From: Halobacteriovorax sp.
GTDB lineage: Bacteria > Bdellovibrionota > Bacteriovoracia > Bacteriovoracales > Bacteriovoracaceae
Direction of reading: 5' to 3'
Assembly: GCA_002720865.1 (NCBI GenBank)
Contig: PBIO01000010.1
Coordinates: 1 to 57,417, forward strand
Length of the DNA: 57,417 bases
Shown: in pieces, positions 14,197 to 47,326 of the stretch
Layout of the letters: every line of letters begins with the position of its first letter
Numbering within the stretch: position 1 is the first letter of the stretch
Program-made: the position numbers and the translations under genes
Notes under the pieces: model-generated
What the model was told of the DNA's origin: nothing
The model's input: only the letters and a program-made list of their open reading frames with translations
The model's database searches: none

Positions 14197-14448
14197 ATGA
14201 AAGCTTCTAACCCTCGTTACATTCGAGCTCGTGCAGGATTCTTTGGAATCTCAATTTTTGATTGCATGGTGGCCTTTTCAGTTCTCTGCCTAGGCCCAAT
14301 GTTCGAGCTCGAATTTGGAGGGGTAGCAGTCGTGAATACTCTATATTTTGTTGCACGGATTATGACCAGAAACAAGATAAGCGGTAAGGAGATTCCGGCA
14401 AAGATTAAAAAATCAAAATATTTATATTGGACAAGAGCAGTAAAATGA
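14197..14448 (+). CDS. VirB3-like inner-membrane protein
   Basis: 83 residues. The N-terminus is basic (NPRYIRARAGFFG), and one or two hydrophobic segments lie at about residues 18-50. VirB3/TrbD/TraL proteins are about this size, sit in the inner membrane and work with VirB4; here the gene lies between the pilin-like gene and virB4 and overlaps the latter by four bases (ATGA). The family call is by context and size. Confidence 0.7.
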   Translation: MKASNPRYIRARAGFFGISIFDCMVAFSVLCLGPMFELEFGGVAVVNTLYFVARIMTRNKISGKEIPAKIKKSKYLYWTRAVK

Positions 14449-16475
14449 AAGCACTACTAGACGACATTAAAAACATAATTTCTTCAAGTAAAACAAAGCA
14501 AAGCTTTTCAGGAATCGAATGGCCGATTGCTAAAGTAAGCGGTAATGAAATCATAAGCAGAAAGAACGTAAAGAGTTATGCTTATGAGTATATCGGTAAA
14601 GATATTGACCAGCTGTCTCCTGAAGCAAGATTGCTTTTTATCTTAAAGCTTAGAGCCTACCTAAATAAGGCATCAAGCGGAAACTTCTATAAGTTCTATC
14701 TGAAAAATAATCGTATCTTTGTTAATACCACTGAGGAAAATGCAAGATTTTTTGGAGGGAGGTTAGAAAAGCTCGATAATCCCCTATCTATTCATTTTGA
14801 AGGGGGTCAGATATATGGAGCTCCTTATTTCGGTCCCGACTATTACAAGGTAAATGGCCTTTATTATCGAATAATCAGCTTTGAATCGAATAGTTTTTCA
14901 ACAAATAAAATCGACTTCGCAGAGTTTTCTGGACACCACGAGTTGATGGTTCAGTTTATCAAACGAAAGACAGCAGTAGTTGATAACAAACTGGCTGGGA
15001 AAGAAAAGTTGCATGGAATTGTCAAAGGTGCATCTGATCTCAATATTACATCTGAAGAAGCAAAGGAAGAGTTACGTTTAGTCAGGAAACAATTAGAGCA
15101 AAAAGTAGAAAGCCTTTTTTTTGCCTATGTTAGCCTATTCGTTAGTGCGAATACCCTTGAAGAACTAAATTCAAAAACAATTAGATTACTAAATATTCTT
15201 GATGATGAAGGGCATACTCCATTTTTTGAAACTCACTCTCTTCAAGAAGTTTATAAATCAACACTTTTTGGTGTATCGCCATTATTTGGAAAATATGGTC
15301 AAGAATTTAATACGAGTGTTCTCTCAAACATTCTCCCTCTTTCAGTAGATAAGGTAAGTTCTTTTGGAAAAAAATATTTTTCAAGAGCCGGTAACGACGT
15401 TTATCTTGATTTGATGGATTTGGGAGACGGCCTAAATGTACTTTGGACAGGACCAACTGGCCGAGGGAAAAGTGTTACGGCCAGAGATTATGCCTGGGAC
15501 TTAATTGAATCCACAAAAATGAAGCTTCTGATCCTTGAATACGGTGATTCAAGTGAAAGGTTCGTAAAGTGGCACAAAGGGGTAAGTTACTCAGATAAGA
15601 TCCCTTTTTTGATGTTTAAAGAAGATCCCCATTATCTCCTGGAAATCTTCTTATCCCAGGTTGATAGAGACAAAGATAATATCAATACGGTTGATAGTGG
15701 GAAAATTTATGAAAGAATCAAGAAAGGAATTGAAGAAGATGCTTTTAATTCTGTCGATGACTTTATTGATTATGTTAGCGAAGACTATGAAGAGTTTAAA
15801 TACTACTTCTCAGAGATTCGTGACTATTTAGACGATGAGAGCGAACTACCCACCGAAGCAAAAATAATTCATTGTAATATCAAATTTTATCCCAAAAGAA
15901 TGAAAAAAGTTGTTCTGGCCTTTTTTATGAAATGGTTTGAAATGTACGAAGGGGATATAATGCTTCTCCTTGATGAACTTTATAAGTTTATCAAAAAAGA
16001 AGAGGAGGACGTAGGAAGCTACATTGACGAGTTCATTAGAACATTCCGAAAAGAAGGAAAGCCGATTTGGCTTTTTACTCAAAACCTGACCGATAAAGAT
16101 CAAATCGCTTACTTTGAAGCAATGACCAAAAACTGTGATGTTAGGGTGTGCTTTAGAGAGGGAAGTGAGATAAGTAGTCTTTCAAACTTTAAATCCGACC
16201 ATATAGTGACTCTAAATTCATTGTTTTATGAAGAAATTTCTTCAGATGATGTAGGAACTTCAAGAAGCGAGGTAAAGTTCGCAGTTCTCGGGCCCACTGT
16301 TAACAAGGTCCTTAGACACCCCAAAAATGAACTCCGTTATACGGTTTTAAACACTGATAAAGATTTTACGACTATGTTTAAAAACTGGGAAACAGGATAT
16401 GGGGGAAGATTCCATGAATGTTTTAGAGAAAGTGTAATAACATTTATGGAAGCGAGGAGAGAACTTGGTGTTTAG
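14445..16475 (+). CDS. virB4: VirB4 family T4SS ATPase
   Basis: 676 residues from the ATG overlapping the previous stop; a TTG at 14427 is less likely. Walker A GPTGRGKS at about residues 335-342 and Walker B MLLLDELYKF at about 505-514 are both present, followed by the typical sensor segment PIWLFTQNLTD. The N-terminal 300 residues match the VirB4 partner-binding domain in length. VirB4 powers pilus assembly and substrate transfer at the inner membrane. At about 675 residues it is slightly shorter than classic VirB4 (about 790). The most secure T4SS call in the window. Confidence 0.93.
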   Translation: MKALLDDIKNIISSSKTKQSFSGIEWPIAKVSGNEIISRKNVKSYAYEYIGKDIDQLSPEARLLFILKLRAYLNKASSGNFYKFYLKNNRIFVNTTEENARFFGGRLEKLDNPLSIHFEGGQIYGAPYFGPDYYKVNGLYYRIISFESNSFSTNKIDFAEFSGHHELMVQFIKRKTAVVDNKLAGKEKLHGIVKGASDLNITSEEAKEELRLVRKQLEQKVESLFFAYVSLFVSANTLEELNSKTIRLLNILDDEGHTPFFETHSLQEVYKSTLFGVSPLFGKYGQEFNTSVLSNILPLSVDKVSSFGKKYFSRAGNDVYLDLMDLGDGLNVLWTGPTGRGKSVTARDYAWDLIESTKMKLLILEYGDSSERFVKWHKGVSYSDKIPFLMFKEDPHYLLEIFLSQVDRDKDNINTVDSGKIYERIKKGIEEDAFNSVDDFIDYVSEDYEEFKYYFSEIRDYLDDESELPTEAKIIHCNIKFYPKRMKKVVLAFFMKWFEMYEGDIMLLLDELYKFIKKEEEDVGSYIDEFIRTFRKEGKPIWLFTQNLTDKDQIAYFEAMTKNCDVRVCFREGSEISSLSNFKSDHIVTLNSLFYEEISSDDVGTSRSEVKFAVLGPTVNKVLRHPKNELRYTVLNTDKDFTTMFKNWETGYGGRFHECFRESVITFMEARRELGV

Positions 16476-19563: not shown

Positions 19564-20079
19564 ATGGACTATTTTGTACTAGGTAAACAAGTAAGCACAT
19601 TATTAATCAATACGCTGTCTCCTCTTGTTCTGACATTCCAGACACCGGTGAAGAATGTAATTGTTCCTGACAGTAGATACTTTCATGCAGTTCACGATTC
19701 TCAAGCAAATGAAGGTAAGACAGTTATTCTCTGGGCCAAAAAGAATCCTTCGCTGAGCTCACAGACAATTACTGTTCTATTGGAAAAGGGGAGTTACGTC
19801 TTTGCACCTGAAAATACCAAACAGGTAAAAGACAAAGACATTAATATCTATAAAGGGAAGGTAAACTCCTCTTACGATGTAGTTTATAAGACCAAAGACT
19901 ATATATACTTCGAGGGTGACACCTCTATAAAGATCAAAAATCTAAGAAAGCGACCAATCGAGATTAATGGGATTCGCGTTAATGCTGAAAAGGTTGGATA
20001 CTTTTCAAAAGGTACCCCGCTTAAGATCAAGCTAAACAGTGTTCCTAAAAGGCCCAAAAATATTAGGGTAGCGAGGTAG
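19564..20079 (+). CDS. VirB9/TraK-like T4SS protein
   Basis: 171 residues, beta-rich, with a weak hydrophobic leader. The N-terminal part (PVKNVIVPDSRYFHAVHD and the following strands) resembles the VirB9/TraK N-terminal domain, which sits in the outer-membrane core complex with VirB7 and VirB10. It is shorter than a full VirB9 (about 290), and the C-terminal VirB7-binding domain is not obvious, so a TraK-type protein is equally possible. Overlaps the next start region. Confidence 0.6.
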   Translation: MDYFVLGKQVSTLLINTLSPLVLTFQTPVKNVIVPDSRYFHAVHDSQANEGKTVILWAKKNPSLSSQTITVLLEKGSYVFAPENTKQVKDKDINIYKGKVNSSYDVVYKTKDYIYFEGDTSIKIKNLRKRPIEINGIRVNAEKVGYFSKGTPLKIKLNSVPKRPKNIRVAR

Positions 20080-20081
20080 TG

Positions 20082-20939
20082 ATGAGTAAAAATATTATTC
20101 TATTCCTATTTCTAACTCTCTTAACTTTAATGTCTGTAAAGGTAGAGGCAAAACTTTTAGATAAGTCGCTTAGATATGGTGGCCGATTCAAGCAAGATAA
20201 AGTCTCCACCAAGGCCTCTGCACCAGTTAAAAATACAGCAGAACTTGAAGCTCTTAAAAGGAGAATGGAAGAGCAACTTAAAAGAGAGAAAGAGCTTGCT
20301 GATAAAAAGATAAAAGAACTAGAAGCGAAGGCAAGAAGAAAGAAGAAGGTAAAGAAAAAGAAAATAGTTAAATATCAACCCTTGATCCTCACAAGTAAGA
20401 AGATTCTACCTGCCTCATATGAAGCAAAGGCATACCTATATCAATCTCTTCAGATCATTGATGGAGAGAGAAAGAGAGTACGTCAGATCAGAACAAGAGG
20501 GGACAAGTATATACCAGATGGAACTCGTTTTCAGTGTGACTCAGCAGTTTCAGGTAAACGTATTCTTACCGAGTGTGATGCCATGGTCATTAGAGGGAAA
20601 AAGGTAAGGATCAATGTCGTTGTACTTGATGATTATGATGGGGATGAAGGAATGTTCGCTGATGAAATAAGAGAGATTGATGATTCCATTATACCTAAGA
20701 AAGCGATAGCCACCGGTCTTAGTGCAACATTTGATGCAAATAAGCAACGCTATGACGGAAACAATGGAGAAGTTGTTAGGCGTAATGGCCACAACATTAC
20801 CATGAGTATGGCCGAGGGAGTTAGTAACGGTATTTCAGAAAGTATTGAGAGAGAAGCAGAGAGGGCACAAAGAATATTAACAGTTAGATCAGGAAAGAGA
20901 CTTCTTTTGAGTTTTTCAGATGAAGTGGAATTAAATTAA
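20082..20939 (+). CDS. VirB10/TraB-like T4SS protein
   Basis: 285 residues from ATG 20082 (a GTG at 20079 is also possible), with AGGT just upstream. Hydrophobic N-terminal segment about 4-23, then a Lys/Glu-rich coiled coil (about 50-100), then a beta-rich domain. Strands such as YIPDGTRFQCDSAVSG, VVLDDYDGDEGMFADEI and the end RSGKRLLLSFSDEVEL fit the VirB10/TrbI C-terminal domain. Unusually the N-terminal helix looks like a cleavable signal (VEA at its end) rather than an inner-membrane anchor preceded by a cytoplasmic stretch. Confidence 0.68.
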   Translation: MSKNIILFLFLTLLTLMSVKVEAKLLDKSLRYGGRFKQDKVSTKASAPVKNTAELEALKRRMEEQLKREKELADKKIKELEAKARRKKKVKKKKIVKYQPLILTSKKILPASYEAKAYLYQSLQIIDGERKRVRQIRTRGDKYIPDGTRFQCDSAVSGKRILTECDAMVIRGKKVRINVVVLDDYDGDEGMFADEIREIDDSIIPKKAIATGLSATFDANKQRYDGNNGEVVRRNGHNITMSMAEGVSNGISESIEREAERAQRILTVRSGKRLLLSFSDEVELN

Positions 20940-20950
20940 GGAGATATTTA

Positions 20951-21508
20951 ATGAAAAGTATTAAGTCTATTTTACTCGTTTCTTCAGTATTTATCCTTCT
21001 ACAAGGTTGTAGCTCTCACAGTGTTTACAAGGCTATGTATAGAGGAGCCGCTTTGGGTGCCGGAGCAGGAATTGCTGTTGACTATGCCGTTAAACCTGAT
21101 GGGGTTAAATACGAAGCTCAACACGCTGTAGGCTCTGCTTTAATAGGGGCCGCAGTCGGTGCAGGAGTGTCTTATTTATTTCACAAAGAAGATCCATCTA
21201 AAAACCCCATTCCAAGGAAGAGAGAGGACGAAATGAGGGACGAGATACAGAAGTCTTCTCAACCAGATTTTGACTATGAGCTTGGTAATAAGAAACTTGA
21301 GTTAAACCTGGAGTTTAAAAAGACCAATACATACATCCAGAAGACGGCAAATTTACCATCTGATTTAAAAGCTCTATTCCCACAGCCTACGTTGGAAACT
21401 CATAAGCTTGAGCCTCAAGTAAGAACTTTTGGGAATGAGACAATGCTTATTAGAGGGTGTGAAGTTTCTGTTCAAAGTGTAGCTGAACCAAATATTGGTA
21501 CGAAGTAA
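20951..21508 (+). CDS. TraV/VirB7-like lipoprotein with glycine zipper
   Basis: 185 residues. Lipobox LLQGC with Cys at about residue 20. Residues 30-80 contain glycine-zipper stretches (GAALGAGAGIAVDYAV, ALIGAAVGAGVSYLF) of the type that packs into membranes. A lipoprotein placed after VirB10 fits the TraV/VirB7 role in the outer-membrane core ring. Larger than VirB7 (about 50) and closer to TraV in size. Its TAA shares a base with the next ATG. Confidence 0.68.
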   Translation: MKSIKSILLVSSVFILLQGCSSHSVYKAMYRGAALGAGAGIAVDYAVKPDGVKYEAQHAVGSALIGAAVGAGVSYLFHKEDPSKNPIPRKREDEMRDEIQKSSQPDFDYELGNKKLELNLEFKKTNTYIQKTANLPSDLKALFPQPTLETHKLEPQVRTFGNETMLIRGCEVSVQSVAEPNIGTK

Positions 21509-21672
21509 TGAAAAATCAAAGTGGACTACAGATAGCTGTTGTAGCGATTGGAAAATTACTCTTCAAAGGGCTTAGGTTCTTGTTTGTAACGCCGGAAAAG
21601 AAAAGGGATGAAAAGACATATGCAATCATTAAAAACCGATCTACGAAAAATTTTTTCAATGTTAATGATTAA
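21508..21672 (+). CDS. Small 54-residue protein coupled to T4SS operon
   Basis: The ATG at 21508 shares its A with the TAA of the lipoprotein gene, and the frame runs 54 codons to a TAA at 21670-21672. Residues 7-27 are moderately hydrophobic (LQIAVVAIGKLLFKGLRFLF), so it may be a small membrane peptide; the rest is basic. The last nine codons and the stop fall inside the perfect palindrome at 21646-21688. No family recognised; support is the coupled start. Confidence 0.5.
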   Translation: MKNQSGLQIAVVAIGKLLFKGLRFLFVTPEKKRDEKTYAIIKNRSTKNFFNVND

Positions 21673-21690
21673 CATTGAAAAAATTTTTTG
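21646..21690. repeat. Perfect AT-rich palindrome, terminator-like
   Basis: Perfect 21-bp inverted arms (21646-21666 and 21668-21688) around one central G, with runs of A and T at the outer ends, so each strand gives a hairpin followed by Ts. It closes the VirB operon and could terminate transcription in both directions. It lies next to the large inverted repeat that begins at 21703. Confidence 0.65.
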
Positions 21691-21702
21691 CTATTCGCTG
21701 GG

Positions 21703-21910
21703 TATTCGTACCTGGGAACGGCCGACGAATATAATCAAAAACTGCAAATGGCTAAAACTAAAGGACTTCACCACCCCCACACGGCCACGGCGCACCGGTG
21801 ACCTCTCCCCTTCTACGTCCTGCGGTCTTGAACGGGAGAGGTCACCGGTGCGCCGTGGCCTGTCTGGTGGTATTGAATCAGTTAGCTCTCTCCATTTGCA
21901 GTTTTTGATT
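21703..21910. repeat. Nested inverted repeats, candidate origin of transfer
   Basis: From outside in: TATTCGT (21703-21709)/ACGAATA (21725-21731); AATCAAAAACTGCAAATGG (21733-21751) with its perfect complement at 21892-21910; ACCACC (21770-21775)/GGTGGT (21866-21871); and perfect 27-bp GC-rich arms 21783-21809 and 21834-21860 around a 24-base loop. The inner arms are far richer in GC than their surroundings. The position between the mating-pair genes and the relaxation-like/coupling genes fits oriT; a replication origin or MITE-like element are alternatives. No transposase and no target-site duplication seen. Confidence 0.55.
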
Positions 21911-21998
21911 GGATCCGGTCCTGGTGGGGTCAGTGAATTTTCAATTTATTTATTTATATTATTTATTATTAGTTTAGTTTGTTTAGGTTTAGTTCCTA

Positions 21999-22402
21999 TG
22001 TGCGATACTACAGTGGTTTCTAAGATTCTACAGGTGGTATGCCTAGATCGTGTATGCGGAGTATTGTGGTCTTATGTAATTGAGTGGTCTTTATCTGAGA
22101 TATTGCTTGCTCTATTCTTTTCTATTGTGGTCATTTCAGTGGCCATATTTAAACATGTTAAATATGTCCTTGTTGGGCTATTCTCGGCCGGTTTAGTTTT
22201 ATCTCCTTTGCGTTGTATATCTCCGGCCTTGTATCCTATTCTCACCAGGTCCCATCAAAGTTCTAGCGGATCTGAAAATCTATCTTTCTCCATATTCTGC
22301 TTTCCTCTAAGGATTAAAAAATTATGCGAGATTTCTACCAGTTTTCTTCTATTTTTTAGAAGGTTGGCCATTCAACTTAAAAAGGGGTTCTATGTCTATT
22401 GA
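21999..22402 (+). CDS. Possible small Cys-containing membrane protein
   Basis: The frame is open across the inverted repeats from 21608, but coding there is implausible. From the ATG at 21999 it gives 134 residues with hydrophobic segments (SEILLALFFSIVVISVAIF and YVLVGLFSAGLVL) and several Cys. It ends 11 bases into the next gene, a typical coupling overlap. No clear Shine-Dalgarno was seen at 21999, and the true start could be further left. If not real, the 21911-22391 stretch is a T-rich leader holding nothing else I can identify. Confidence 0.35.
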
Positions 22403-23135
22403 TATTGAAATTACACAAAGAGATTTTGAGCTTTTTAAAATGTTAAATAGGCTCAAGTTTTTAAGAGTTGATCTTGTTAACGGTTTTTTCTTTTCTGGTA
22501 AGCGTACTACCTCAAAAAGACGGTGTCAGCAGAGGTTAAAGCTATTAACCGATAATGATTACCTTATACGCGTGAAAGGTGGGCTCTCTACACAGTTCAT
22601 ATACAGACTCTCTAGGAAGGGAGTTAGGTATCTTGAAAACGAGTGGTATAGGTTTCATCCAAATCAAAGTGATGGCGAGTCCAAAAAGAAGTTTAAGGCC
22701 TTTCCGTTTATCGAGTCTATGCCTTGGAGTAGTTTCTTTCACGAGCATGAAGTTGCGAGAGTTTTAAATGAATTTTGGCACGGAAAATTTAGGGCCTTCT
22801 ATTCAGATAGAGAACTTAAAAGGATGTATAAGGACTACGCAATTATTCCCGATCTTCTTATTAAAACAACGAAAGGAAATATCGCCGTAGAGGTGGAGCT
22901 AGAAAGCAAGACCCACAAGCGTATTAGAGAAAAGCTTAAAACGTACTCAGAGATCGAAGGTATTTCCTACGTTCTATATCTTTGTAACGGAATTGGTATT
23001 CAGCAAGCTGTCGGAGGCATTGCTCACCAGATAGGCACGTTAAATTTTGGCCTACAGGTCATGCAACTGGATGGATTTCATCGGGAGCCACAGGTTGTAT
23101 TTAATCAAATCAAGACGACTCTAAAAGGGAGCTAG
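22392..23135 (+). CDS. Replic_Relax-like winged-helix/nuclease protein
   Basis: 247 residues. Residues about 5-90 form a winged-helix-like domain (FELFKMLNRLKFLRVDLV, then RRCQQRLKLLTDNDYLIRV, then YRLSRKGVRYL). Residues about 150-185 hold IIPDLLIKTTKGNIAVEVE followed by LESKTHKRI, the P-D...E.E..K arrangement of PD-(D/E)XK-type cores. This layout is that of the replication-relaxation family found beside TraG genes in conjugative elements. No classical relaxase (Tyr plus HxH) is visible elsewhere, so this may start DNA processing. The coupling-ATPase gene follows after two bases. Confidence 0.65.
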   Translation: MSIDIEITQRDFELFKMLNRLKFLRVDLVNGFFFSGKRTTSKRRCQQRLKLLTDNDYLIRVKGGLSTQFIYRLSRKGVRYLENEWYRFHPNQSDGESKKKFKAFPFIESMPWSSFFHEHEVARVLNEFWHGKFRAFYSDRELKRMYKDYAIIPDLLIKTTKGNIAVEVELESKTHKRIREKLKTYSEIEGISYVLYLCNGIGIQQAVGGIAHQIGTLNFGLQVMQLDGFHREPQVVFNQIKTTLKGS

Positions 23136-23137
23136 TA

Positions 23138-24892
23138 ATGAACGAAGTTACGAAACAGGAAATGTTTTTGTTTTTTAAGAAGTATCTTTTCTTAGTTATA
23201 AGTTTTTTGTTCGTAATTGGTATTAACACCAATATTCATTGGGCTGTTTACCTACCAATATCAATACTATTTGCGGCTCTCTATAAGAGATTAACAGATG
23301 GCTATTTAAGAGACTTGGCACTAAGGTGGGAGAGGTCTAATCATCATATCTATACATTCCTTTATACTGTCTCCTTTATGGGACTCGGGCTTTATGTATT
23401 CATATTTTATTTTCAGCTATCTGTGGGATTTATAGTAAGCCTACTATCTCTCTTTTTCTGTTGGGGATATTTTATATATTTCTTTTTAAAGGCCCACCAG
23501 AGGAGTGCGGAACATCAGGAGATTTTAGAAGAGAGTCCTGGGGTGTTTATGGGTCACTATTTAGATAAGGACGGCCTACCAAAGGCGCGCCATGTTTCCA
23601 ACTCTGATAGAGTTCAGCATCAGATCACTGTTGGTGGTTCTGGTTTTGGTAAAACCTTCAGTACATTTATGCCCCAAATTTATCAGGATATTCAAGAAGG
23701 GGATAACTTCATAGTTATCATTAATATGAAATCAGATATGGACTTTGAAAACAAAGTTTATTCTTGGTGTAAAAAGTTCAATAGAAAGTTTAGATATTTC
23801 TCAATTACTAAGCCGGAGCTCTCATCCTATTACAACCCATTTTTATTCGGATCGAGGGGGATGATTAGAGATAAATTCATGCTTTTTAGTAGCTGGGATA
23901 ACGCCTTTTATAAAAAGCTTGTTAAGACAGATTTAGCAAAGAAGCTAGATGGGCTCTATGACGAAGGAGTTACCATCTCGAAGATGAAACAGCTTTTTGA
24001 AGAATATGAAGGTGATAAAGATTTTAAAGGTGTTATCGCCGACCTTGAGGGTGTCCAATACGCTCCGTTTTACGAAAAGATAAACGTCCCATTTGGATCG
24101 ATTCACGACTTCTATAAAGAGAAATCTGTATTCTTTCTTTCATTAGATGAAGATCAGATGAGGGAATACGCTAAAGACTTTCAATGTATGATCTATAACG
24201 ACCTTAGAGGGTTTGCAGGATATATCAGAGATAGAGTTGATGAAAGAGACCGCACTCCAACTTGGATATATAGTGATGAGATTAAAGAGGTATTTGATAA
24301 CTCTATGACCACTTATAACTCTCGTAGTAGGGCGGCAGGCTTTGGGAACTTCTATGCTACCCAGTCTCCCTCAGGGGATATACCAAGGGATCTACTAAAC
24401 CAGTTACAGGGCTCTTGTAAAACATGGCATATTTTAGGTGGGCTCGATGCTGATTCAATTGAATATATCAATAAGCAGATCGGAACCGAAGAGATCGTAA
24501 AATATACAGAGCAAGTCGAATTAGGGGTTCAGACGACCAATACCGGCCTTGGTTCTGCCAGAGATGCGCATAAGCATGTCATTTCTCACAATACTTTCAG
24601 AAGGCTTAAATTGGGCGAGGGAGTCCTTTACACAAAAGAAGAAGGGTTCTCTAAAAAGATCATCTATGATGCGATGTTTTATTTAGATGATTCCGAACCC
24701 AGAAATTATACCAACGATTTTTACGATCTTGGAATTAAAGACTCAATCGAGGCTGAGAAGCAAAAATATGTAAAAGAAAGCATAAAAAAGCTCACAAAGC
24801 CAGATGATGGATTAACCGAACAAGAACGCTTTTATAGGGACGATTTTGTTCCACAAGTAACTATAACTGAAGAAGGGAGCATGCCCTTCTAA
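23138..24892 (+). CDS. virD4: VirD4/TraG type IV coupling protein
   Basis: 584 residues. Two N-terminal pairs of hydrophobic segments (about 10-45 and 70-110) anchor it. Walker A VGGSGFGKTF at about 164-173, FIVIINMKSDMDF next to it, and PTWIYSDEIKEVF at about 373 as the Walker B region; then YATQSPSGDI as the sensor stretch. These proteins recruit the relaxosome to the T4SS and pump DNA. Preceded by the relaxation-like gene. Residues after about 540 form an acidic tail ending MPF. Secure assignment. Confidence 0.9.
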   Translation: MNEVTKQEMFLFFKKYLFLVISFLFVIGINTNIHWAVYLPISILFAALYKRLTDGYLRDLALRWERSNHHIYTFLYTVSFMGLGLYVFIFYFQLSVGFIVSLLSLFFCWGYFIYFFLKAHQRSAEHQEILEESPGVFMGHYLDKDGLPKARHVSNSDRVQHQITVGGSGFGKTFSTFMPQIYQDIQEGDNFIVIINMKSDMDFENKVYSWCKKFNRKFRYFSITKPELSSYYNPFLFGSRGMIRDKFMLFSSWDNAFYKKLVKTDLAKKLDGLYDEGVTISKMKQLFEEYEGDKDFKGVIADLEGVQYAPFYEKINVPFGSIHDFYKEKSVFFLSLDEDQMREYAKDFQCMIYNDLRGFAGYIRDRVDERDRTPTWIYSDEIKEVFDNSMTTYNSRSRAAGFGNFYATQSPSGDIPRDLLNQLQGSCKTWHILGGLDADSIEYINKQIGTEEIVKYTEQVELGVQTTNTGLGSARDAHKHVISHNTFRRLKLGEGVLYTKEEGFSKKIIYDAMFYLDDSEPRNYTNDFYDLGIKDSIEAEKQKYVKESIKKLTKPDDGLTEQERFYRDDFVPQVTITEEGSMPF

Positions 24893-45650: not shown

Positions 45651-46049
45651 ATGGACTCAAGAGAATTGCACAAAAATGAAATCGTTCTACCTTCAGCAAG
45701 CTGCGGAATTTTCGGGTTAGGAGAAGATTATCAAGTAGAACCCTACCTACTAGATGAAATATTCGAGACCGGTAAGCCACATATTATGGACCTCAGGGCG
45801 ACGGGCGATTCTATGGCCTCGATCATTTTACCAGGAGACACCTTGAGAATTTCGAGAAAGGCAGAAATTAAAAGCGGATCCATTGTCGTGGCCGTATGGG
45901 AGGGAAAGTTTATCTGCAAATATTACTTTCGTAGAAACGATGCTCATTATCTTGTTTCGGCCAATAAGAAATATTCCGACCTAAGAATTAATAAATTTTC
46001 ACTAGAAACAATTTTTAAGGTTGTGGCGCAATTTAGGTTTCACACATGA
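45651..46049 (+). CDS. umuD: UmuD-like S24 autoprotease subunit
   Basis: 132 residues. Cys18-Gly19 (ASCGIFG) is the UmuD/LexA self-cleavage site; GDSM gives catalytic Ser54, and CKYYF the catalytic Lys90, the standard S24 pair. RecA-stimulated self-cleavage would make UmuD', which activates UmuC as DNA polymerase V. No Shine-Dalgarno precedes the ATG; the TATAAAAT directly upstream raises the chance of a leaderless mRNA or a later start (TTG 45666). Overlaps umuC by ATGA. Confidence 0.9.
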   Translation: MDSRELHKNEIVLPSASCGIFGLGEDYQVEPYLLDEIFETGKPHIMDLRATGDSMASIILPGDTLRISRKAEIKSGSIVVAVWEGKFICKYYFRRNDAHYLVSANKKYSDLRINKFSLETIFKVVAQFRFHT

Positions 46050-47326
46050 GTAGCAATTCAAAACCTTATGTGATTTTAATTGATGGAGATTCTTTCTTTT
46101 GGAGTTGTGAGCTCATTTTTAGACCGGATCTTATTGGAAAACCAGGTATTATTCTTTCTAACAATGACGGATGCGCAGTCTCAAGAAATAGGTTGGCCAA
46201 AAAATTGGGAATAGCCATGGGGGATCCCTATTTTAAGATCCGCAACCTTTGTGAAGAAAATGGCGTTATCGCATTTTCTAGTAACTTTGAGCTCTATCTC
46301 GATATTTCTAGAAGATTTAAACAGATTTTAAAAGAAGAGGTGGGAGGTATAGAAGATTATTCAGTAGATGAATCATTCGCTAGTTGGAATATAAGAATGG
46401 ACCTTAAAAAGTTTGCTAAACACCTGAGGTTCAGGCTTTTGCGAGAAGTGGGGATCCCCACGACTGTTAGTATTGCACCATCAAAAGTTTTGGCAAAGGT
46501 CGGATCCAGGATCGGGAAAAACGATCCTAAAATGGAAGGTGTTATGTTTTTCCATTCTCACATAGAAGCAGACAGCTATTTAAAAGAAATATCTGTCGAT
46601 AAACTTTGGGGAATTGGAAGAGGACGCCATTTACAACTCAGATGCCTCGGAGTTCATTCGGCTTATGATTTAAAGTATTATGACAACACTAAGCTTTTAA
46701 GAAAGAATTTAACAAAAGCTGTAGTTCAAATTAGGGATGAGTTGCACGGTATCGAGTGTTTTCCTGTAACTGAAATTCCCGAAAAGAAAAAAGAAATTAT
46801 GAGCACCAGGACATTTTTTAGATCTGTTTATACGAAGTTCGAGCTGGCGAGAGCACTTTCAGACCATATTAGTGACGCCAGTGCCGAACTAAGGTTACAG
46901 GGATCTGTGGCAAAAGAGGTTACCATCTATCTTTCTTCAAATAGACACAGAGATGGAATCGAGCAATATAGTTTTAAAAAATCAATGAGGATCGGATCAG
47001 CTACCGACAATACATTTCGGCTGATTGAATTGGCCCTTAGTATGCTCGAGCTCGGCTTTAAGAACGGAATCGAATATAAAAGAAGTGGAATTAAGCTCTC
47101 TCAACTGGAAGATAATTACGAATATACCTTGAGTTTGTTTGATCCTATAGAATCTGAAAAAGTTTCAAAACTTATTACAGCCATGGATATTATTAATTCT
47201 CGGTTCGGAAAAAGAAAAGTCCGGTCACTTTCATGTAGCACTGATAATTTGACATGGAAGATGAATCGATCAAATCTCTCCCCTGCATACACAACAAATT
47301 TTAACGAGTTGCCCATCTGTGGCTGA
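46046..47326 (+). CDS. umuC: UmuC-like Y-family DNA polymerase
   Basis: 426 residues. Catalytic carboxylates: Asp13 in LIDGDSFFWSCE and Asp108-Glu109 in YSVDESFASW. VGIPTTVSIAPSKVLAKV and DKLWGIGRG (thumb HhH region) follow in order, and the C-terminus carries the typical SPAYTTNFNELP end. It is the catalytic subunit of an error-prone, lesion-bypass polymerase. Plasmid umuDC loci raise mutagenesis and help the element survive damaged DNA. Length is normal (422 in E. coli). Confidence 0.95.
   Translation: MSSNSKPYVILIDGDSFFWSCELIFRPDLIGKPGIILSNNDGCAVSRNRLAKKLGIAMGDPYFKIRNLCEENGVIAFSSNFELYLDISRRFKQILKEEVGGIEDYSVDESFASWNIRMDLKKFAKHLRFRLLREVGIPTTVSIAPSKVLAKVGSRIGKNDPKMEGVMFFHSHIEADSYLKEISVDKLWGIGRGRHLQLRCLGVHSAYDLKYYDNTKLLRKNLTKAVVQIRDELHGIECFPVTEIPEKKKEIMSTRTFFRSVYTKFELARALSDHISDASAELRLQGSVAKEVTIYLSSNRHRDGIEQYSFKKSMRIGSATDNTFRLIELALSMLELGFKNGIEYKRSGIKLSQLEDNYEYTLSLFDPIESEKVSKLITAMDIINSRFGKRKVRSLSCSTDNLTWKMNRSNLSPAYTTNFNELPICG

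Follow-up and report, generated by a model that had tools for sequence, protein, structure and literature searches.

The nested hairpin at positions 21733–21910 of the window (the whole stretch of 57,417 nucleotides analyzed here) is very probably the origin of transfer (oriT) of the plasmid that carries it, with the MOB_C-type protein encoded at 22392–23135 (+ strand) as its cognate relaxase. Contig C10, to which the window belongs, repeats a single 70,001-bp circle 1.8 times in tandem; the replicon is therefore a plasmid, best explained as a conjugative plasmid of ~70 kb from a Bacteriovoracaceae-like bacterium. (The tandem duplication is an assembly artefact, and the copies vary at a few positions.) The locus presents the combination by which a MOB_C oriT is recognized: a nested inverted repeat with a nic-like G/GTC in its inner arm, beside relaxase and coupling-protein genes. 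An oriT between mating and relaxation genes had been proposed in the original prediction. That proposal is supported, and made specific as a MOB_C-type oriT, by the position between type IV secretion system (T4SS) genes and the MOB_C and coupling-protein genes, by a core conserved in position and strand, and by the likeness to CloDF13, the classical MOB_C plasmid and prototype.

The outer stem is perfect over 19 bp (21733–21751 and 21892–21910), and the GC-rich inner stem is perfect over 27 bp (21783–21809 and 21834–21860; 31 bp at 97% when extended), both from the inverted-repeat search. Between them, the predicted folds place an imperfect middle stem, with TTCACCACC on the left side (21767–21775) and GGTGGTATTGAA on the right (21866–21877). 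The original prediction had joined these arms to a 43-base palindrome as one structure. All the arms are where it placed them and the stems are indeed nested, but the palindrome (21646–21688; perfect and AT-rich, with 21-bp arms at 21646–21666 and 21668–21688, a 1-nt centre and a T6 tail) is a separate hairpin and not a nested arm. Among inverted repeats whose arms are separated by no more than 300 nt, the longest in the whole 70,001-bp circle are 27, 21, and 19 bp, all at this place, and the next-longest is 13 bp. The folding z-scores of the hairpin are −15.3 (RNA), −17.1 (DNA, + strand) and −15.9 (DNA, − strand), and none of the shuffled sequences folds as well. Sub-threshold Rfam matches were discarded, being mostly to microRNA models, which respond to any long hairpin.

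Two short motifs had also been singled out in this region. The repeat TATTCGT/ACGAATA, suggested as a relaxase site, finds no support; inspection by eye showed no conservation of it around homologous hairpins, and the conserved element is TGACCTCTCCCCTTCTACG. The complementarity between GGTGGTA and a TACCACC hairpin loop elsewhere, which had been allowed to be chance, is best read so, because GGTGGTA is the middle-stem partner of ACCACC. The heptamer TACCACC itself occurs 11 times vs. 2.2 expected (27296, 28496, 31421, 41084, perhaps 30671). Several copies lie within a common larger intergenic unit, some with an AT-rich stretch, ATAATTAAATTAT, upstream and TGACTACT downstream.

All the genes that frame the hairpin are on the + strand. 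To its left are T4SS genes: a VirB4/TraC-like ATPase (14427–16475; TIGR02746, 4.2e-12, under the NCBIfam cut-off) and a TrbI/VirB10-like protein (20079–20939; PF03743, a weak 1.6e-4 under the Pfam cut-off, with syntenic homologues at loci L022 and L131). A lipoprotein-like gene (20951–21508) ends just left of the hairpin and has a counterpart at the same position in L131. Its stop codon and the start codon of a 54-aa ORF (21508–21672) overlap as TAATG, and the stop of this ORF is inside the AT palindrome, which probably, as we infer, is the transcription terminator of the T4SS operon and lies outside the oriT core. To the right, 541 bp separate the inner stem from the relaxase gene, which is followed by the gene for a type IV coupling protein (23138–24892; TraD/TraG/TrwB-like, PF10412, 4.8e-5), homologues of which adjoin the hairpins of relatives. 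The frame of a 264-aa ORF (21608–22402) runs through the hairpin, and searches of Pfam, PHROG, and NCBIfam gave no family match for it; its first half, at least, is probably not a gene. Its 3′ half, in the gap between hairpin and relaxase (21935–22391), could encode a small membrane protein, also without family match. Elsewhere, the plasmid carries a Y-family DNA polymerase of the ImpB/MucB type (46046–47326). We found no PLSDB match to the transfer region by blastn or to the relaxase by tblastn, and no relatives among viral contigs.

The core of the hairpin recurs far beyond this plasmid. Sixteen loci, once set in the same orientation, have in common a 19-nt element that runs from TGAC to AC(G/A/C) with C-rich sequence in the middle, and also a back-pairing right arm; the spacing is invariant in all 16, and L035 reads CGAC for TGAC (L023, with a looser version, was left out). 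The common form is TGACC, a C-rich stretch and CNACG at fixed 19-nt spacing, with GGTCA pairing back, often nested in a second stem. In the window this core, which runs from TGAC to ACG across inner arm and loop, is TGACCTCTCCCCTTCTACG (21799–21817, + strand), the predicted recognition and nic element of the MOB_C relaxase. The covariance model built from the 16 loci (R1), the window hairpin among them, matches 21793–21850 (+ strand) with 48.8 bits, a score for a sequence that is itself in the model. Covariation in the stems is strong: 68 two-sided changes are seen vs. 19.8 in shuffles, with 96.4% paired. Of 115 genomes from the family, 72 have a match to R1, as do 49 of 114 genomes sampled across the phylum (E 1e-5), counts that, like those of the pattern loci below, include related species and non-independent loci. 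An outer stem of at least 10 bp is present in 62.5% of cases vs. 2% with mismatched flanks (p 1.5e-36); the nested outer stem is thus a family trait.

Where relatives carry this relaxase or this coupling protein, a hairpin adjoins the gene. In the flanks (up to 5 kb per side) of 40 R1 matches picked as not used in model building, MOB_C is found at 31 and a coupling protein at 27, and all 58 of these genes are on the strand of the hairpin. The gene order there is coupling protein, MOB_C, then the hairpin after a further 19–143 bp, or 405 bp in a single case. When 257 Gb (~85,000 genomes) were scanned with a DNA pattern of the core, which is stricter than the family to the point that the window hairpin itself has no exact match, at least 116 loci emerged; among those listed, the titles are mostly Bdellovibrio, Bacteriovorax, or kin, and MOB_C is present at 79 and a coupling protein at 56 of the 116, all on the same strand. 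Also among the listed loci, five Thermoleophilia genome bins (L126, L127, L140, L173, L188) have the same core with long stems, and in L127 the MOB_C and coupling-protein genes lie downstream of the hairpin, as in the window.

The short distance past the relaxase gene in many relatives, and the fact that the structure folds as RNA too, would suit a role as terminator of transcription or as RNA that regulates the relaxase operon. Such a role is nevertheless very improbable: a T-run follows none of 108 homologous hairpins, the letters of the loop are conserved, no Rfam family reaches its gathering score on the hairpin, and in the window plasmid, L131, and L127 the hairpin is upstream of the relaxase gene. 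At L131, a locus from a Bacteriovoracaceae genome, the gene order of the window is kept, the proteins are ~25–38% identical, the hairpin occupies the same gap, and the loops are near-identical (CTACGTCCTGTGGACTTGA in L131 vs. CTACGTCCTGCGGTCTTGA in the window plasmid).

The genome from which the window comes contains four such hairpins, whose arms differ; MOB_C genes adjoin three of them. A blast search of this genome gives no full-length match except the copy on the plasmid and the duplicate produced by the tandem assembly. Further oriT-like hairpins lie beside MOB_C and coupling-protein genes at G000:C3:71254-71300 and C11:216743-216792, and, with neither gene beside it, at C27:91998-92049. 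The original prediction would have been abandoned had the same repeat turned up at many sites as a MITE, which is not the case, because there are only these four with different arms. Since they are not copies of one another, a MITE or transposon end has hardly any probability left, and the same small weight goes to a recombination site for a tyrosine integrase. Such integrases do lie near 29 of the 79 MOB_C loci among the pattern loci listed, nearly all just 3′ of the hairpin, and near 15 of the 37 without MOB_C. Yet the fixed short distance is that from hairpin to MOB_C and not to the integrase, the plasmid's own integrase gene is separated from the hairpin by ~26–27 kb of the circle, and the oriT of CloDF13 has no annotated integrase next to it.

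The relaxase (247 aa) matches PF13814 (Replic_Relax) with 36.6 bits vs. a cut-off of 25.3 (E 6.2e-9). Its match to the NCBIfam family MobC_subf (NF041423; E 7.7e-6) has 25.4 bits, under the cut-off of 200, and the protein is therefore distant from the MobC of CloDF13. Profile searches of the whole genome gave no match to the Relaxase, TrwC, or MobA_MobL families. In the AlphaFold2 model (pLDDT 92.5), residues 3–94 form a MarR-type winged helix (Z 9.8 in a fold search), and the top two Foldseek matches of the protein, each with probability 1.00, are the restriction endonucleases 2p14 (E 1.5e-3) and 7edb (E 2.9e-3). The predicted active site of this PD-(D/E)XK nuclease, with a conserved PD...ExE motif, comprises D154, E167, E169, and K173; in an alignment of 49 sequences P153, D154, and E167 are invariant, and E169 and K173 nearly so. 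D154 and E167 are also common to the CloDF13-type MobC. An N-terminal winged helix with a PD-(D/E)XK active site is the make-up of MOB_C relaxases (PMC12857230), and the winged helix, the nuclease fold, and the conserved residues thus give the protein the same make-up.

The Pfam replication-relaxation label, together with a PHROG match annotated as replication initiation by nicking, raises the question of whether the hairpin is instead a replication origin (double- or single-strand) with the Replic_Relax protein as replication initiator, and conjugation plays no part. We regard this as improbable, though less so than a terminator or an integrase site. A coupling protein accompanies the hairpin at 27 of the 40 R1 matches and at 56 of the 116 pattern loci listed, and many copies are next to integrases on long contigs, an arrangement like that of integrated elements, for which no replication origin is needed. 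In CloDF13, moreover, the same design serves mobilization.

The oriT of CloDF13, like the window hairpin, is a nested inverted repeat; its inner arms are CTGACCACCC and GGGTGGTCGGG. The latter has a single exact match in CloDF13, on the opposite strand from the mob genes and inside the nested hairpin of which CTGACCACCC is the other arm. The TGACCACCC arm holds an 11-mer, GGGTG/GTCGGG, that we checked to be present in the CloDF13 sequence and take to be the mapped nic; the mapping is reportedly that of Nunez and de la Cruz in 2001. As in the window plasmid, a coupling protein and a MobC relaxase are adjacent, but the coupling protein comes before the relaxase in CloDF13 and after it here. CloDF13 also differs in lacking the 19-nt-spaced CNACG core (its CGAC-to-ACG spacing is 22), in its larger loop, and in a relaxase that is only distantly related to the one in the window. 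Its oriT is present in 837 plasmid records; a close relative is of type MOBC in PLSDB, with a MobC above the NCBIfam cut-off. As the window relaxase is under that cut-off and CloDF13 is missed by R1, the two oriTs are of related but distinct types.

In pDC09 of Streptococcus mutans, a 16-bp hairpin with GGGGTCAT closely precedes the gene for a protein of 258 aa that has an ExE...K motif; a coupling-protein gene comes next. This plasmid, too, is without the CNACG core, its 258-aa protein has no Pfam match, and the sequences are only suggestive of a relation to the window system. The search with R1 found no match in either pDC09 or CloDF13, and the likeness to both thus rests on motif and layout. 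In the enterobacterial oriT-mobB-mobC of pMET1 and HPI-ECOR31, called CloDF13-like, nic is reported to be inside an inverted repeat (PMC2262945), so that by description it resembles the window hairpin. The relaxase TraX of pAD1 shares the winged helix and the PD-(D/E)XK nuclease with the window protein, but TraX binds five direct repeats 70–120 bp from nic (PMC12857230). No such repeats were seen near the window hairpin; the region 21000–22500 contains only two chance-like two-copy repeats.

From these comparisons we infer nicking and mobilization at the hairpin. The MOB_C relaxase would read the asymmetric core (TGACC...CTACG, 21799–21817) across inner arm and loop and would nick the arm at the G/GTCA step, most likely at 21803/21802 on the − strand. 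This predicted nic is drawn by analogy with the G/GTC of CloDF13 and its reported mapping; because the arm is palindromic, the sequence does not decide the nicked strand, and the symmetrical alternative is at 21840/21841 on the + strand. The single strand would then pass through the adjacent coupling protein and the T4SS. The nested stems may extrude, present the site, and help the transferred strand's ends to join again.

In the literature searched, we found no description of an oriT in Bdellovibrionota, a phylum of largely predatory bacteria, throughout which the same hairpin signature would, judging from sequence, mark mobile elements. At 37 of the 116 pattern loci listed, no MOB_C is present in the DNA examined, some stretches of which simply end early. 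In L105, L108, L156, L190, L208, and L234, a hairpin without nearby MOB_C has a tyrosine integrase close by. Loci with hairpin and integrase and without MOB_C are candidates for islands mobilized in trans. A wider reading, to which we give a little less than an even chance, is that one oriT signature runs through the Bdellovibrionota and that the relaxase-less hairpins, many of them beside a tyrosine integrase, belong to small islands that rely on MOB_C relaxases, and on conjugative plasmids like that of the window, as borrowed machinery, giving a hidden shared gene-transfer network in predatory bacteria. The signature marks likely transfer origins even with no relaxase present. It also carries the MOB_C nic motif beyond enterobacterial plasmids into a distant phylum, and genetic tools for predatory bacteria could use it as a candidate oriT.
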